Below, in pieces: positions 18,442 through 29,112 of a DNA stretch of 31,999 nucleotides (within the stretch, counting starts at the first letter, position 1; each line of letters starts with the position of its first letter). Position numbers and translations under genes: made by a program. Under the pieces are notes generated by a model. That model worked only from the letters and a program-made list of their open reading frames with translations, ran no database searches and was not told the DNA's origin. Origin of the DNA: a virus. The stretch lies in IMG/VR virus record IMGVR_UViG_3300043464_001199, positions 1 to 31,999 of that record. The stretch is one strand, 5' to 3'.

Positions 18442-18595
18442 TGGTCAACTCGGCAAAAGCCAGCAAGACGACGGGCACCGTGCAGACGGACAGCGCAGCC
18501 CAAACTAAACCCTCCCAAGTCCCAGCTACGCGCTGAAGCCAGTACAAATCCGAGAAACAAAGGACAACGGACGAAACGCAAATCAGAGGCCTCAT
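18434..18595 (-). CDS. Small membrane protein (53 residues)
   Basis: The ATG at 18595 overlaps the stop of the upstream gene as ATGA. The 53-codon frame ends with TAG inside the next gene, overlapping its start by 8 bases. The product has two hydrophobic segments, residues 3-15 (PLICVSSVVLCFS) and about 29-47 (GLVWAALSVCTVPVVLLAF), separated by WLQRVAGTWE, and ends in acidic AELTNE. A two-pass inner-membrane protein is likely. It may act in superinfection exclusion or membrane association of replication, but nothing in the sequence decides this. A different frame covering the same bases lacks coupled starts and looks spurious. Confidence 0.62.
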   Translation of the reverse strand: MRPLICVSSVVLCFSDLYWLQRVAGTWEGLVWAALSVCTVPVVLLAFAELTNE

Positions 18596-18753
18596 TTGCA
18601 GGCCTCCAATGCTTCCGTGGCTTCCTGCACCGCTGCTTCAAATGAGGCCAAATCGCATCCTTCTCCGGCTCTGTTTGCCCAGCTAAATTTTCCTGACTTG
18701 GTTTGCCAGATGCTTGAAATTCCAAGCCCTGGGTGAATGTATTCGGTTTTCAT
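18592..18753 (-). CDS. Small soluble protein (53 residues) after structured element A
   Basis: The ATG at 18753 directly follows the CACAACACACT leader, and the frame ends in an ATGA overlap with the membrane-protein gene. The product starts MKTEYIHPGLGISSIWQT, has a likely beta-hairpin (GKFSWANRAGEG) and ends in an acidic helix (LASFEAAVQEATEALEAC). It resembles small phage beta-beta-alpha proteins but matches no family I can name. The leader architecture and coupled stop support it as a real gene despite its size. Confidence 0.65.
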   Translation of the reverse strand: MKTEYIHPGLGISSIWQTKSGKFSWANRAGEGCDLASFEAAVQEATEALEACK

Positions 18754-18832
18754 AGTGTGTTGTGTGAGTTGCTGACGGCCTCGTCAGTGCCCGCATCACG
18801 GGTCAGACGCCCCGGAGGGCGTTTCGGCCTTA
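18754..18832 (-). ncRNA. Structured intergenic element A (three hairpins)
   Basis: The element begins with the TAA of the upstream gene, TAAGGCCGAA, then has hairpin 1 (ACGCCC-TCCG-GGGCGT, 18822-18807), hairpin 2 (CCCG-5-CGGG, 18802-18790), hairpin 3 (CTGACG-AGGC-CGTCAG, 18787-18772) and the CA-rich leader of the 18753 gene. Element B at 19100-19188 has the same order. Neither is followed by a T-run, so ordinary termination is unlikely. A cis-acting RNA or processing signal is inferred. Confidence 0.6.
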
Positions 18833-19099
18833 TCTGCCAATCTGGCGCGCCACAAGGGCCTTCCCATCCCACTTGGCGTCAAACGAGTGTATCCAATCGC
18901 GCTCCCGATCCCCGATCGGCCCAGAGAGGGCGTAAACGTCAATGATTAAGTCCGTGATGTCCTCCGGCACGTCTTGGATGGGTCGAAATTCGCGGCCTCC
19001 AGAGCGGGGGCAAGTGTAGGCGGCCTCGAAGGCGTACAGTCCCGGGCGGGCGTATGCGGTGGTCTTCTTGAAGGCGCGGAATGCTTTGATCAGTTTCAT
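18830..19099 (-). CDS. Uncharacterised 89-residue protein between elements A and B
   Basis: This protein begins with a basic helix (MKLIKAFRAFKKTTAYARPG), continues with YAFEAAYTCPRSGGREFRP, and then an acidic segment VPEDITDLIIDVYALSG. The end, WDGKALVARQIGR, is basic. It has two Cys and no membrane segment. The gene is flanked by the two copies of the structured element: its ATG follows element B and its TAA is the first codon of element A. The leader (ACACACACATACC) has no Shine-Dalgarno sequence. It may be an early host-takeover protein, by position only. Confidence 0.62.
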   Translation of the reverse strand: MKLIKAFRAFKKTTAYARPGLYAFEAAYTCPRSGGREFRPIQDVPEDITDLIIDVYALSGPIGDRERDWIHSFDAKWDGKALVARQIGR

Positions 19100-19188
19100 G
19101 GTATGTGTGTGTATGTTAGTAGGTTAACTCAGACGGCCATCGTCAGGCAGGGCCTTACCCTGCGACGCCCGAAGGCGTTTCGGCCTTA
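19100..19188 (-). ncRNA. Structured intergenic element B (three hairpins)
   Basis: From the TAA of the upstream gene it reads TAAGGCCGAA as in element A. It then has hairpin 1 (ACGCC-TTCG-GGCGT, 19078-region at 19178-19165), hairpin 2 (GCAGGG-5-CCCTGC, 19163-19147), hairpin 3 (CTGACG/CGTCTG with one mismatch, 19146-19130) and the CA-rich leader before ATG 19099. Hairpin 2 differs in sequence from that of element A but keeps the fold and the 5-base loop, as expected for selected RNA structure. Hairpin 1 closes a stable TTCG loop. Confidence 0.6.
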
Positions 19189-19392
19189 GAGCAGCACCGT
19201 CCAGCCGTGGATTGACTCGATGCGGTCTGCTGCAATCGTCAGCTCGTCGCGGCGATGAGCCGCTGCTCCGATTGCAATCACATCGCCGCAGTGTGCGACG
19301 CTGACGCCGGTCGCAATTACAAACCCGTCAGCGTTGAGGATGGTTGCGGAGTCAGAAATGATGCTGTTGGCAAAAGAAGTGGAGTTGGACAT
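19186..19392 (-). CDS. Small uncharacterised protein (68 residues)
   Basis: The ATG at 19392 follows an A/C-rich leader (ACACACAAAAAA) without a Shine-Dalgarno sequence. The product begins MSNSTSFANSIISDSATILN and is then likely beta-rich, with FVIATGVSVAHCGDVIAIGA forming mainly hydrophobic strands, and ends HGWTVLL. It is hydrophobic but lacks a clear continuous membrane helix. A longer frame upstream exists but would translate the non-coding leader. Its stop codon is the first codon of structured element B. No function is recognised. Confidence 0.55.
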   Translation of the reverse strand: MSNSTSFANSIISDSATILNADGFVIATGVSVAHCGDVIAIGAAAHRRDELTIAADRIESIHGWTVLL

Positions 19393-19490
19393 TTTTTTGT
19401 GTGTGTTGGTTGTTTGCGTCCGCGTTACTGCGAACGGTTGCGAACCTATACGGTCACATTCCGGTTGCAAACTTTTTTTCGAGGGAATCT
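19393..19490 (-). promoter_or_regulatory. Intergenic gap with direct repeats, possible early promoter/operator
   Basis: This 98-base gap separates the ParB-like gene from the small early genes. On the minus strand it has a run of seven A, then TTTGCAACCG and TTCGCAACCG, a direct repeat about 36 bases apart, with TATAGG between. These could be operator half-sites around a promoter, but the -35/-10 spacing is short (14 bases). The A/C-rich leader of the 19392 gene fills the end of the gap. Confidence 0.35.
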
Positions 19491-20081: not shown

Positions 20082-20524
20082 TGAATCCTGAATTTGCGTT
20101 TTCTGAAGTGTTTGACCTTTTGGACGGCAGAAAAAACCGTCGAAGCTTCGTCGCTTTTATTGTGCGACGTTCTTGGAAGCCCTAGCGAGTCTTGGACATT
20201 CCGGACAAGTTTGCTGAGCGCTGCAACCGTGTATCCGCTCGCTGCCGCGGCCTCGCGCATGCTCCGGAAAGGGAGTTGCCGGTCAAGGCCTGCGGCAAAC
20301 GCCAGCGCAAGCGCAAGCATTTTGCCGTTGGATCCGTAACGCCAAAAAAGCCTGATCACCGCAATCAACTCGGCATTCCCGGTGCGCTCCTGCCCTGCCC
20401 GCTGCCGCTCCGCCCACGCCAACACGCGCCGCGCCTGATCCAGCGTAAGCCCGAGTTCCTCGGCCAGCAGCTCTTCCGGCTTGTCCAGAGATCCAGGGTC
20501 CCAGATGTCGGATGGCTCAGACAT
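20078..20524 (-). CDS. Putative helix-turn-helix regulatory protein
   Basis: This 148-residue protein has an acidic N-terminus and two helical segments that may bind DNA: LLAEELGLTLDQARRVLAWA (about 19-38) and, in the middle, FRSMREAAAASGYTVAALSK (about 90-109), which has the spacing of a helix-turn-helix. The C-terminus is basic (VQKVKHFRKRKFRIQ). It begins at ATG 20524, overlapping the glycosyltransferase stop by 8 bases. Upstream in-frame codons belong to the glycosyltransferase region. It is the first gene of the putative early block and a good candidate regulator, but the family is not certain. Confidence 0.6.
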   Translation of the reverse strand: MSEPSDIWDPGSLDKPEELLAEELGLTLDQARRVLAWAERQRAGQERTGNAELIAVIRLFWRYGSNGKMLALALAFAAGLDRQLPFRSMREAAAASGYTVAALSKLVRNVQDSLGLPRTSHNKSDEASTVFSAVQKVKHFRKRKFRIQ

Positions 20525-21665
20525 AGAGGGGAGAGAAATCGATATTTCCGAGTTGGATGCCTGCGCGCTTAAACGGCTCGTACCAGCCTGCGCCAGTTCG
20601 AACGTCCTCAATCAGCCCAAAGTACTCCAAGTATTTCGGCACCACCGCCGCCACGCTAAAGTTGCGGGCTGCAAAAACTCGGATGGCTCGCCGGTTTAGC
20701 AGGTGGACGTTGTTGATCGCCCAAACGTATTGCCCCATGGTGCGGCACCGATAGCCGTTGTGTCCTGGTAATACCCATTCCGTAAAAGCGCCGGTGTCTG
20801 ATGTCACCACCGGCGTCCCCGAAAGCATTGCCTCCACCGCCACGCCGCCAAAGGGCTCAATGTACTGCGACGGGATCATCAGGCAGGCAGCCCGCCGCAT
20901 CAAGTCGCGCCGTGTCTCCTCGTCCGCGTAGCCGATCAACTCGATATGGTCTGTTGGCCCCGCATACTCCTTCACTAAATCCCCCTGCCCTGCGATTTTA
21001 AGCCGCCTTCCTGCCTTTGCCGCCGCTTCCGCGACAATATGGACACCCTTGGCTCTCGTTATGCGCCCGAGGTACAAAATGTAATCCTCCGACTCGGTCA
21101 CCACCGGCCCGAATTTGTCAGGCTCAAAGTAATTCGGAATCACAATTTCGTAGTCGTCGTTATTCGCAAAAGCGACTCGGTCGGAGCCGTGGACGGCATT
21201 GCGGACAGCATAGGACTCGTACACCTTCCATCGCGCCAGCTCCCGAGGCAGTACCCACGGGTATCCGATCCCTGACTCGACAACGTGAATGTCCTGGTTG
21301 GCCTCGCAAACGCGCTGATGTCCCCAACCGAAGGGCGCCAGCAGGAAATCCCCGGGCTGTTTGCGGGATTTAATTTCACGGTTAAACCGCTCGGCAAAGT
21401 TTGTGTAGGCGATGTCGTTTGAATCGTGCCGGAAAAACTCCTTGCGCCAATTATAGGAGCCATAGGCTGCCTGCAAATCGTCGTTGGTCGTCACCGTGAC
21501 GTGCTCGCTGCAATCCGCTTGGCTTTCCTCGTGCCCGTAATGGATCACCTCTTGCCCTGCGGCTTTAAGCCCCGCGCAGAGCTTAAGAACCTTTTGAGTG
21601 AACGCGCATGCGTTGTACTCGGGACTTGTGACAGTATGCGGGACGCCAGGGCAATGAAATCTCAT
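20517..21665 (-). CDS. Glycosyltransferase, GT4-like (GT-B fold)
   Basis: This 382-residue protein has the C-terminal donor-binding domain of GT4 enzymes: YILYLGRITRAKGVHIVAEA (about 195-214), KIAGQGDLV, LIGYADEETRRDLMRRAACL, and the motif PSQYIEPFGGVAVEAMLSG, in which the two Glu of E-x7-E are present. The N-terminal domain has HYGHEES and TNFAERFNREIKSRK. Such retaining enzymes transfer sugars from nucleotide donors. The target here is unknown: host surface polysaccharide, virion proteins (the collagen-like fibres are Thr-rich) or DNA are options. It is not in the usual DNA beta-glucosyltransferase groups. A strong hairpin lies just before the ATG. Confidence 0.9.
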   Translation of the reverse strand: MRFHCPGVPHTVTSPEYNACAFTQKVLKLCAGLKAAGQEVIHYGHEESQADCSEHVTVTTNDDLQAAYGSYNWRKEFFRHDSNDIAYTNFAERFNREIKSRKQPGDFLLAPFGWGHQRVCEANQDIHVVESGIGYPWVLPRELARWKVYESYAVRNAVHGSDRVAFANNDDYEIVIPNYFEPDKFGPVVTESEDYILYLGRITRAKGVHIVAEAAAKAGRRLKIAGQGDLVKEYAGPTDHIELIGYADEETRRDLMRRAACLMIPSQYIEPFGGVAVEAMLSGTPVVTSDTGAFTEWVLPGHNGYRCRTMGQYVWAINNVHLLNRRAIRVFAARNFSVAAVVPKYLEYFGLIEDVRTGAGWYEPFKRAGIQLGNIDFSPLYV

Positions 21666-23901: not shown

Positions 23902-24453
23902 TCAGGAAAGCGTCGTGCTCACTCTACGCACCACAATGTTAACTCCAACGGCAGGTGCCTCGGCAAAAGTCACTGCATTTGCAGCGATTACAAACGCACC
24001 ATTGGTCGGATCTGGATCCTGCAAGAGTCCGTCAAGACTCACGGTATAACGGCTGCCGGTGTCGCCGGTCGTGAAGCCTGCGAGCGGGGTGAAGGCGAGC
24101 GTGCTGCCGTCGCCGGTGAAACGCGAGGTTGCAAAAGTTGTCGCCGCCCCGGTCGCGACTGGCCCGGTGCTGCCGGTCGCTCCACGTTCACCGCTTGGCC
24201 CCTGCTCCCCCGGGATGCCGCTGACCCCTTGCAACCCTTGCGGGCCCTGCGTCCCTGTTGGCCCGATCTCGCCAGCAATGCCCTGCACTCCCTGCAGCCC
24301 GCTGGCCCCTGTAGCGCCCTGCGGCCCCGGGGTGGTAGACGCGGGCCCTGTAGCGCCAGTTGCCCCCGGCAACCCTGCATACAGCTCCACGCCGACGGTT
24401 TTAACGCCGTCAACGCATGGCTCAACCTCGATGCGGTATGTGGTGCAACTCAT
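23902..24453 (-). CDS. Short collagen-like tail fibre protein
   Basis: This 183-residue protein begins MSCTTYRIEVEPCVDG and carries Gly-X-Y repeats from about 27 to 99 (Thr-, Gln- and Pro-rich). It ends in a beta-rich domain (104-180) with RFTGDGSTLAFTPLAGFTTG, then YTVSLDGLLQDP and NGAFVIAANAVTFAEAP. That end domain is homologous to an internal domain of the 801-residue fibre. The ATG overlaps the 61-residue gene stop as ATGA; a longer upstream start is unlikely. The trimer-forming collagen rod and end domain suggest a receptor-binding or accessory fibre. A 34-base stretch is identical to part of the large fibre gene. Confidence 0.85.
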   Translation of the reverse strand: MSCTTYRIEVEPCVDGVKTVGVELYAGLPGATGATGPASTTPGPQGATGASGLQGVQGIAGEIGPTGTQGPQGLQGVSGIPGEQGPSGERGATGSTGPVATGAATTFATSRFTGDGSTLAFTPLAGFTTGDTGSRYTVSLDGLLQDPDPTNGAFVIAANAVTFAEAPAVGVNIVVRRVSTTLS

Positions 24454-24635
24454 TCGGTCGGCTTTGTAAACCGTGGCGACTTCATCCCGTCGTAAACCCA
24501 CCCGATGTCGCATGGCTCGCCTTCCTCAAGGCGCACAGTTGCAATGGCGCCCAGAGGATTCCACTGCGTTACGCCATCCCAGATGACGATGTTTTCAACC
24601 ACGTTCGTACTGAGCGAAATGACTGCGTGCTTCAT
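24450..24635 (-). CDS. Small fibre-associated accessory protein
   Basis: This 61-residue protein begins MKHAVISLSTNVVENIVIWD and has CDIGWVYDGMKSPRFTKP near its end. The pattern of an NIVIWDG segment followed by a GWxYDG segment is common in small proteins encoded beside phage tail fibre genes, where they may be assembly chaperones or fibre parts. It lies between the Gly-rich adhesin gene and the short collagen gene, with an ATGA overlap to the latter. Confidence 0.72.
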   Translation of the reverse strand: MKHAVISLSTNVVENIVIWDGVTQWNPLGAIATVRLEEGEPCDIGWVYDGMKSPRFTKPTE

Positions 24636-25642: not shown

Positions 25643-26710
25643 TTATGGTGAAATTCCGAGTTTGTTCAAACTTGTGTAAGGGAATGAATAGGTTGTTCCA
25701 AACCCCAAAGAGTTTACGAAAAACGGTGCGTCCCCGGGAAGACCCCACGACGCAACCTTTGCTGATTGCGTGATGTCAATGAACCGGGATCCGCCCTTCG
25801 AGTAAAAGGTAAACTCAACTGGATCACCGTAGGCAATCGGGTAATAGTAGCCGTTGATGATGTATGTGCCGTTCGAATGCCCAACACGATTAAACCCTGG
25901 CGCTTGAATGCTCTCCGTGTTCAGCACCGGGATAATGGACTCGTTCCAGTAAACCCCGTCTGCGCTGTAAAAAACGCGCAACGGGCTTCCTGAAACGATT
26001 GCCCAGAATTTATTTCCCGCAAAATCAAAAGCGGGTGTTCCGATGCCGTTAAAGAAAGGATTTGGCGTCCATGCAAGGCCGTCCGTCGAATACGATGCAC
26101 CGAGAATGCTGTTTGCTTCGACGAACGTGTCGTTTCCAAACGCGTGTGAAAACGAATTGGTGCGAATTTGCGTGTACGTTTCGAAATCAACCGACCTGTA
26201 CAACTCGTTATTGAAGTTAGACACCATCCAAGCGTTGTTACCATAAGCCGTCCGGCGCACAAAAGTCGGCACTGCCAAAGACGCATTCCAAGTAATTCCG
26301 TCCGTTGAAGAAATGTTATAGCACTGAAAGTTATTTGCCCCGGGCCCCGAGGTTTGATTTTTTAGCCCTACAAAACACGCCATGCCCTCCGAGACAACAG
26401 CATCGCGCGCATCGAAGCTTATCTGGTACTGCACCCCTTGCGTCGTAGTTCCGCGCTGCCCAGACAAAATGTCTCCCACCGTGGTCCACGCCACTCCGTT
26501 TGTGGATTTAAGCACCCTCAAATACATGTTAGCCGCCGGATTGGTGCCTCCGGTGGACACTTCGTGTGTCGTGAGCGCGTAAAAATGGCCGAATGCGTAA
26601 ATGATACGGCTGACGATGCCGTACCCCGCGGCATCACCGGTCGGCGTAATCACTCGCCAATCGATGCCTGGCGTGATGTGCGTTCTGATGAGTGCCCGTA
26701 ACGCGATCAC
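25643..26710 (-). CDS. Beta-propeller-like fibre protein with Asp-box repeats
   Basis: This 355-residue protein starts at GTG 26710, whose GTGA overlaps the large fibre stop. It has at least five Asp-box-like repeats: KSTNGVAW (68-75), SSTDGITW (134-141), RSVDFETY (172-179), YSTDGLAW (207-214) and YSADGVYW (248-255), each followed by strands. This S-x-D-G-x-x-W spacing is typical of sialidase-type propellers and related binding domains. Catalytic residues of sialidases are not evident, so sugar or protein binding is more likely than hydrolysis. It probably belongs to the tail adhesion structure. Confidence 0.8.
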
Positions 26711-29112
26711 GATGTTAAGTCACCAAGTAAGCGCCAGGTGTTGGCTGCGCATTTGACTGCACAGACGGTGATTTCTTGGCCGGTCGTTAAAAGCGCGCCG
26801 CCAAAACTTTTGAGTTGTGCTCCGGGTCCTGCCGCAAACTGAAGTTGACCAGCCGCGGCCTGCACAAACAAAATCTGTGCGCCGATTGGCAACCCAACGA
26901 CGTTGTCCGCGGGTAGAGTGACAACACAAGTCGTCGACGAGTTGTAAATCTCAATCTGTTTGCCGTTGTCGGTCAATTGCGGTTGAAAAGTCGGGATACT
27001 GTTTGTTCCCGCATCGCCATAAGTTGCGATCGTTAAGGTTTTAAATTCCGGACCTGTTGCGCCTGTTGGACCGGTCGGCCCGCCAGCTGGCCCTGTTGGC
27101 CCAATTGCGCCGCGAATAATCCGGACCGCAATCAAAGCTCCGTTCACGGGTGGCTCGTGAAAAGTAATCGTCCCGCCGTTGTCTGCGGTGATGATGTACC
27201 CTCCGTTGACCGTGCCTGGGTGCTGCAGAGCGGCGTCAATGGAAACGATGTAGTTTGCCAAATCGGTGCCTGTGAATCCGGTAATCGGAAAAAAGGAACT
27301 CGATGTGCCATTGCCAATAAACTCCGTCAAAACGCCAACGCCGACAGCTGCGGGACCAGTGGCTCCCGTGGCGCCAGTTACTCCGCTTGGACCCGTGAGT
27401 CCCTGCAAACCGCTGGGGCCTGAAGGTCCCTGAGAGCCGCTGGGCCCCTGAAGCCCAGAAACTCCGCTGGCTCCAGTTGCGCCACTCGGCCCAAGTTGGG
27501 TGTACATGACCTGCGCCGCAGTCAGAATGACCGACGGAATCGCAGGCGCGGGCGCCACCGCGGGTGAATACTGGAGGATGATGTCGGTGGAGGTCGTTTG
27601 CCAAAAAAGCTGCAGGTAGTCGCCAGCCGCCACTTTGAGAACGTAGTTCACCGTGCCGATGGCGTGCCCGGGGGTGCCTCCATGCGTTCCGACCACACTC
27701 CACTTAGAGTCCGTGTCGGGCACTGCAGTCCCGTTTTTTGCAAGCCAGATGTTCGCGTCATGTATCTGGTTGCTCGAATTTTGCCACTGCACCGAAAACG
27801 TGATCGAATACACGCCCGCGTTGGCAAACGTAACCCGGGAGCCCGAGACAATCGACACTCCCGACGAGTCGGGATCCGTGTTGTTTAAGGTAATCGCATA
27901 CCCCGTGTTGATTGCGCCCGCGGTCTGGTCTGCCGTGCTCCAAAAGCTGCCCCAGTAACCCTGCGCGCCTCCAGCTCCAGCTGGTCCAGTAGGTCCCACC
28001 GGCCCTGTAAGCCCGGTTGGCCCCGGAGGCCCTGATGGTCCTTCAATTCCGGACGGTCCAATTAGCCCGCTCACACCCGTCGGCCCTGTTGCGCCACTTG
28101 AGCCAGGCTCACCTGAAGTGCCGCTTGGCCCGGAAATGCCTGTTGGCCCGCTTGGTCCCGTTGATCCAGTCGCCCCTGTCAGTCCGGGCGTGCCACTCGG
28201 CCCTGTTAATCCAGATGGCCCAATTGGACCAGCCTCCCCGGTTAATCCCGTTGGTCCAGTTGCTCCACTGCTTCCGGTTGGCCCTTCAAGGCCCGATGGC
28301 CCTGCCGGTCCACTCACCCCTGTCGGCCCTGTTGCCCCCGTGGCACCACTGCTTCCCGTCGGACCTTCCGGCCCAGAAACTCCGGTGGGACCCGTGGATC
28401 CAGTCGCCCCTCGTAATCCCGCCTCGCCGGTCGGTCCTGTTGGTCCGGTCGCGCCCGTGGCGCCCGACCCGGTCGGCCCGGTCGGCCCGGTATCTCCCTG
28501 CGGTCCCTGCGATCCTGTCGGGCCAGTGCTGCCCGTGCTGCCACGGTCCCCGGTGTCCCCCTTAAGCCCTGCCGGCCCTTGTAGTCCGGTGCTGCCGGTA
28601 GCCCCCTGCACGCCGGACACGCCCTGCAGCCCTTGCTCTCCCTGCGGTCCGGTCGGCCCTGTATCGCCGGAAATCCCGGTCGGCCCGGCAAGACCTTGCA
28701 ATCCGCTGGCGCCAGTCGCCCCTTGTTCCCCCTGTGCTCCCGCATCGCCTGCAAATCCTTGTTCACCTTGTGGTCCGACTGGCCCGGTGCTGCCGGTCGC
28801 TCCACGTTCGCCGCTCGGCCCTGCATCGCCAATAAGCCCCTGCGGACCGTCTGGTCCCGTGCTTCCGGTCGCTCCACGCTCCCCACTCGGCCCCGGATCG
28901 CCTGTAATGCCTTGCAACCCCGAAACGCCCACCGGCCCCGTCGCACCAGTGCTGCCGCGAGGCCCTGTCAGTCCGGTCGCGCCCGTCTCGCCCGCGCCTG
29001 TGGCGCCGGTTGCGCCCTGCGGTCCACTCGGTCCAGCTGGCCCACCAAAAGCCCCAGGTGCGCCGGTCAAAATCTCACAAACAATAACTTCGCAAGAATC
29101 TGGGCAGCTCAT
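26707..29112 (-). CDS. Large collagen-like tail fibre with internal C1q/TNF-like domain
   Basis: This 801-residue protein has a Cys-containing head ([17 protein letters not shown]), then Gly-X-Y repeats from about 17 to 383 (Thr-, Ser-, Pro- and Gln-rich, with some breaks). A C1q/TNF-like jelly-roll candidate follows at 384-538, with [16 protein letters not shown] and [15 protein letters not shown] second collagen stretch (541-588) leads to a domain shared with the short fibre (590-668), then a short collagen segment and a beta-rich C-terminal region (689-801). Long trimeric fibres of this kind bind receptors. The overall make-up recalls BclA-type glycosylated collagen proteins. The ATG overlaps the preceding stop as ATGA. 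Confidence 0.9.

Follow-up and report, generated by a model that had tools for sequence, protein, structure and literature searches.

Two predicted type II hammerhead ribozymes at the stop codons of small phage genes, compared with their relatives in other phages

The window, that is the whole stretch of 31,999 bases from a virus record that was analysed, carries portal, S49 protease, terminase and DnaB-like helicase genes, all on the minus strand. The top-listed cultured-phage match of the terminase was a Verrucomicrobia phage with 25% identity, so the host is a guess only. Three small minus-strand genes code for proteins of 68 aa (19186-19392), 89 aa (18830-19099) and 53 aa (18592-18753), and two gaps lie between them, 19100-19188 and 18754-18832, for both of which the coding strand of the gene block is the minus strand. 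The 68-aa and 89-aa proteins showed no match in Pfam or PHROG and no relatives among cultured phages; the 53-aa protein showed no match in PHROG and only a sub-threshold one in Pfam. A homologue of the 89-aa protein with 70% identity was found in loci L124 and L125. The leaders of the three small genes (19393-19412, 19100-19125 and 18754-18772, minus strand) are CA-rich, without an obvious Shine-Dalgarno sequence, and leaders in related loci (L016, L019) resemble them. Also on the minus strand, collagen-like GPT/GAT repeat proteins are encoded at 26707-29112 and 23902-24513, presumably in the tail region, and a glycosyltransferase-like gene, likely auxiliary, lies near the two gaps at 20517-21665 (phrog_3408, E 6.5e-107).

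A preliminary description of this DNA had reported that the two gaps share one architecture, with a common start at the stop codon, three hairpins and a CA-rich leader, and that neither element is followed by a T-run. All the described pieces were recovered on the minus strand: the window contains exactly two occurrences of TAAGGCCGAA (18832-18823 and 19188-19179), and the leaders run to the ATG at 18753 and the ATG at 19099. In both gaps the parts follow the order stop codon, GGCC, GAAA, hairpin, GUC, hairpin, CUGACGA and (U)GGCC, where the two GGCC strands pair as stem II, hairpins 1 and 2 correspond to stems III and I, respectively, and the catalytic core includes GAAA and CUGACGA. The two gaps are, with near certainty on the grounds of homology, complete type II hammerhead ribozymes (HHRs) on the minus strand, with predicted cleavage. 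Hairpin 1 reads ACGCCC-TCCG-GGGCGT in copy 1 and ACGCC-TTCG-GGCGT in copy 2, hairpin 2 reads CCCG-TGATG-CGGG and GCAGGG-TAAGG-CCCTGC, respectively, and the two are stems of one ribozyme rather than the independent elements first described. The third hairpin, hereafter the clasp, is also present (CTGACG/CGTCAG, 6 bp, in copy 1; GACG/CGTC, only 4 bp, in copy 2) but cannot coexist with the active fold, since CUGACG forms the catalytic strand. The earlier proposal of a processing or stability element repeated at gene boundaries was borne out as to the repeated element; it had missed the hammerhead identity, and also that TAAGGCC joins a stop codon to the 5' strand of stem II.

Copy 1 (18770-18829, minus strand) and copy 2 (19129-19185, minus strand) were each identified by our own covariance model, by Rfam RF02276 and by pattern match. 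In copy 1, the TAA of the 89-aa gene (18832-18830) touches the 5' strand of stem II (GGCC, 18829-18826), which is followed by GAAA (18825-18822), stem III up to U16.1, C17 (18806), stem I (18805-18788), CUGACGA (18787-18781) and the 3' strand of stem II (GGCC, 18780-18777). In the same way, the TAA of the 68-aa gene (19188-19186) touches stem II of copy 2 (GGCC, 19185-19182), followed by GAAA (19181-19178), C17 (19164), stem I (19163-19147), CUGACGA (19146-19140), an extra U (19139) and the 3' strand of stem II (GGCC, 19138-19135). The type II order of parts, with stem II open and stems I and III closed by loops, was confirmed by model alignments that run end to end in both copies (1-64 of 64). 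Concerning the pairs next to the core, A15.1-U16.1 is A-U in both copies, N1.1-N2.1 is U-A in copy 1 and G-C in copy 2, and N10.1-N11.1 of stem II is a G-C pair directly beside the core in copy 1, with the extra U placed between A9 and the G-C pair in copy 2. Only 3-4 weak pairs between loop I and the tail are possible in the window copies, as judged by inspection.

Hammerhead_II (RF02276) was the top Rfam match at both sites, with 31.6 and 22.7 bits, below the gathering cut-off of 37, which is a curator's threshold and not a structural feature. The Rfam search at the gathering threshold returned nothing, Hammerhead_II being visible in E-value mode only. Other Rfam matches in the region (snoR71, SAM-SAH and mir-703) were sub-threshold and were rejected as chance. 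The folding energy of the gaps does not stand out (z = -1.9 and -1.7) and would not establish a structure on its own; the homology evidence does.

Because energy folding was weak and the Rfam scores were sub-threshold, relatives were collected by DNA patterns that fixed stem III and the core and placed no constraint on stem I, stem II or the flanks. Among the matches listed, 382 distinct elements form all three stems. Within the CGCC set, 129/136 elements have a paired stem I (21.6 when partners are permuted), and 114/136 have three or more pairs in stem II (48 when partners are permuted), both among the matches listed. An alignment of 60 relatives, from which the window copies were left out, was the source of the covariance model. 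In this alignment, where stem III pairs were partly fixed by the search patterns, 96.1% of the cells are paired, 236 cells changed on both sides vs 72 in shuffles, and the covariation score is 0.761 vs 0.156 in shuffles. Selection on RNA structure, suggested earlier from the two copies, was thus confirmed, and the further copies with compensatory changes that had been named as a check do exist. The model scored copy 1 with 66.3 bits (E 5.4e-18) and copy 2 with 53.0 bits (E 5.9e-14), and gave no further convincing HHR in the window, filters off included, the next best match having an E value of 0.03. The annotated control, phage PaP3, gave no match with our model, as one might anticipate if its HHR corresponds to the core variant reported in PMC3088659.

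The preliminary description had singled out, as evidence against it, homologous loci that keep neither the stems nor the common start. Locus L125 instead keeps an HHR (own model, E 3.2e-11) upstream of its 70% identical 89-aa gene, with a stem III wholly different from that of the window. No HHR was found downstream of the homologous 89-aa gene in L124 or L125. We also observed two contigs (L104 and L118) with two HHRs each, identical 25-nt upstream flanks gtcctagggtcaccatacctaggcc and a very short stem I, which have the look of repeat units.

We regard it as highly improbable that the ribozymes have decayed and lost activity, or that the copies are no more than structural hairpins or terminators. 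The core consensus nucleotides (CUGACGA and GAAA) and the GUC triplet are all intact in both copies (pattern match), and stems I and III have diverged between the copies yet remain paired throughout, save for a single A that bulges out of stem I in copy 1. Decay would agree with the sub-threshold Rfam scores, with a minimum-energy fold of copy 1 that is not the active fold, and with the extra U of copy 2; this U between A9 and stem II is, however, common among relatives, being present in 82/520 type II HHRs of viral contigs, and commoner in the long-stem-I class (49/223) than in the short one (33/297), all among the matches listed. An intrinsic terminator was rejected, as neither a T-run nor a terminator-like consensus site was found in either gap, in agreement with the earlier view that the element is not a plain terminator.

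We consider it likely that both elements are type II HHRs which cut the polycistronic minus-strand transcript in cis and give hairpin-capped mRNAs of small genes. From the position of GUC by homology, cleavage is predicted between C17 (18806) and U1.1 (18805) in copy 1, 24 nt past the TAA of the 89-aa gene, and between C17 (19164) and G1.1 (19163) in copy 2, 22 nt past the TAA of the 68-aa gene. By arithmetic, an RNA of 358 nt (18806-19163, minus strand) is predicted between the two cuts, and the 89-aa gene, the only one inside, would obtain a separate mRNA. The upstream fragment would keep the stop codon and end with the stem III hairpin carrying a 2',3'-cyclic phosphate, and the downstream fragment would carry a 5'-OH and open directly with the stem I hairpin. 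The purpose would probably be to provide each small gene with a hairpin-capped mRNA in which the terminating ribosome fits 5' of the cut. This reading draws on sequence, fold conservation, covariation and stop-codon position, from which we infer cleavage, mRNA stability and the role of the clasp. Points against it are the Rfam scores below the cut-off, the extra U in copy 2, the preference of copy 1 for the clasp fold, and the lack of a downstream HHR in L124.

The position of type II HHRs relative to the upstream gene was determined from the stop of the longest ORF ending nearby, with mechanical ORF calls, an element being counted as abutting when this stop lay at -14 to -4 of GAAA and the ORF had at least 60 aa. 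Among the matches listed, 269/382 type II relatives (70%) abut a stop codon compared to 2.7% when points were drawn at random from the same strands; the fresh set with other stem III sequences gave 92/138, and after clustering by flank similarity, with a single element kept per cluster, the count was 149/214, both also among the matches listed. An A directly precedes stem II in 88% of the abutting and 86% of the non-abutting elements (among the matches listed). With a frequency so alike in both groups, this A seems to be the ribozyme's own and often supplied by the stop codon, so that the choice of flush stops is shifted to TAG: these are TAG in 55% and TGA in 8% of cases, against 17% and 53%, respectively, in long ORFs of the same contigs (among the matches listed).

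HHRs of types I and III were taken from a further scan. The cleavage site is found at a median of 24 nt after the stop in type II, 37 nt in type III and 45 nt in type I, even though the stop of type I lies at or inside the ribozyme; it is mostly at least 20 nt and rarely less than 16 nt after the stop. In several type I loci (L359, L364, L368 etc.), the TGA stop of the upstream gene was seen to be part of the catalytic CUGA. Type III, whose own fold places no hairpin 5' of the cut, mostly lies 20-40 nt from the stop without abutting it, and the gap between stop and ribozyme contains a separate hairpin. Of 47 non-redundant gaps, 38 have z below -2 relative to letter shuffles, and 44 have a minimum free energy of -8 kcal/mol or lower, compared to 20% of equal-length stretches after other stops. 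The strong hairpin between stop and ribozyme is visible in type III loci such as L443, L463, L392, L685 etc., mostly with no T-run; a long T-run was noted in one displayed type III gap, that of L464. The common denominator across the topologies is stop codon, hairpin, cut.

Alternatively, the HHRs cut, and their placement at stop codons merely reflects the compactness of phage genomes and has no function, which we regard as rather unlikely. Genes in phages are densely arranged, only a short stretch separates the ribozyme core from the following SD-like ATG as well (median of 28 nt in relatives among the matches listed), and several copies in Streptomyces phage Diane lie 11-41 nt from the annotated stop. 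Compact packing predicts abutment in all types and explains poorly that type III stands off from the stop with a strong added hairpin, which costs space, nor does it agree with the rarity of cleavage sites less than 16 nt from the stop. Hairpin-ended, ribosome-compatible mRNA 3' ends are the purpose suggested by these correlations.

The clasp of copy 1 (CUGACG-AGGC-CGUCAG, 18772-18787, minus strand) joins the catalytic strand to the 3' tail, and is supported by the minimum-energy fold, by conservation in the short-loop class and by covariation at N7. The short class was defined by a stem I of 18 nt or less and mostly has a UNANG or UNANU loop. Among the matches listed, its tails are complementary to CUGANG over at least 5 bp in 76/159 elements vs 12 with shuffled tails, and this was repeated in the fresh set (62/138 vs 12, among the matches listed); the long-stem class showed no excess (9/223 vs 15, among the matches listed). 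In elements with CNUCRG tails, the core base N7 always matches the tail base, with 25 C-G, 26 T-A and zero mismatches among the matches listed, and the looser YNUCRG tails gave 12 and 15 flank clusters with one T-C exception (among the matches listed). No excess of clasp pairing was obtained when tails were permuted among elements, since the elements resemble one another in N7 and tail, and the claim rests instead on the letter shuffle and the N7 covariation. The pseudoknot between loop I and the tail is significant in the long-loop class (45/65 vs 12.3) and weak in the short-loop class.

According to the plain energy model, copy 1 is more stable by 2 kcal/mol in the clasp fold than in the active one, and the prediction for the downstream product, once free, is stem I together with the clasp. 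After cleavage of copy 1, pairing of the 3' tail with the catalytic strand may favour product release and hinder re-ligation. The clasp could also represent an OFF state. The ribosome terminating on the abutting stop would then sit over stem II and GAAA, leaving the catalytic strand to pair with the tail and delaying cleavage until translation is over. A ribosome covering the stop codon and 12 nt would mask GGCCGAAACGCC, copy 1 still folds the clasp with GGCCGAAACGCC masked, and the clasp is conserved with N7 covariation; such a switch nevertheless seems improbable, because clasp and stop-codon abutment are not associated in 297 short-loop elements (73% vs 67%, p = 0.31). We favour a role of the clasp in product release over a ribosome-controlled switch.

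Tentatively, and without going so far as to call it probable, we propose that all three phage HHR topologies serve as makers of mRNA 3' ends, placed so that the cut falls about 20 nt or more past the stop with a hairpin in between, and that the conserved clasp of the short-loop type II class, to which copy 1 belongs, in addition makes cleavage irreversible. In types I and II a stem of the ribozyme itself would serve as this hairpin, in type III a separately added one. Judging by hundreds of relatives, phages may use HHRs to obtain tidy, hairpin-capped mRNA ends. The locus alone has a modest value, with two more members of a known HHR family, and the wider regularities are of more interest: the placement rule, together with the hairpin added ahead of type III, sharpens the general idea of processing into a specific and testable proposal on mRNA 3' ends, and the N7 covariation points to a selected role for a hammerhead core position left free by the consensus.

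Type II HHRs, which are common in phages, and close groups of them that flank single genes were published previously (Perreault et al. 2011, PMC3088659); tandem phage groups cleave in vitro and in E. coli, and processing into single-gene mRNAs was already proposed (PMC3088659). A 2017 review (PMC6155905) mentioned small non-conserved ORFs and considered the role of HHRs in prokaryotes and their phages an open question. In the open-access literature, PMC3088659 and PMC6155905 included, we found no mention of stop-codon abutment, of a hairpin before type III or of the N7 clasp. The finding that about 70% of phage type II HHRs adjoin the stop of the upstream gene, the cut mostly at least 20 nt past the stop together with the added hairpin before type III, and the clasp with N7 covariation in the short-loop class thus appear to be new within this literature.

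The window copies share with the published type II HHR (RF02276; PMC3088659) the permutation, the catalytic core, the GUC site and the intergenic location in phages. They differ by a short stem I with a UNANG loop, where the published form has a long loop I that forms a pseudoknot with the tail, and the tail of copy 1 is complementary to the catalytic strand instead of loop I; the strict filter of PMC3088659 might reject copy 2 for its extra U beside stem II. Phage HHRs of types I and III have the same core, the same reaction and cleavage downstream of the stop, but represent other circular permutations, type I often overlapping the stop and type III lying farther 3' behind a hairpin. The cultured and annotated Streptomyces phage Diane (MF766046; L680, record 40521-50483) carries nine type II HHRs above the Rfam cut-off in about 7 kb. 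Their neighbours are small, mostly hypothetical genes, with an OCR-like antirestriction protein and an acetyltransferase annotated adjacent. The Diane HHRs belong to the same family as the window copies and likewise lie on the coding strand between small genes; they have a long stem I, without the clasp, and some abut annotated stops while others follow them by 11-41 nt.
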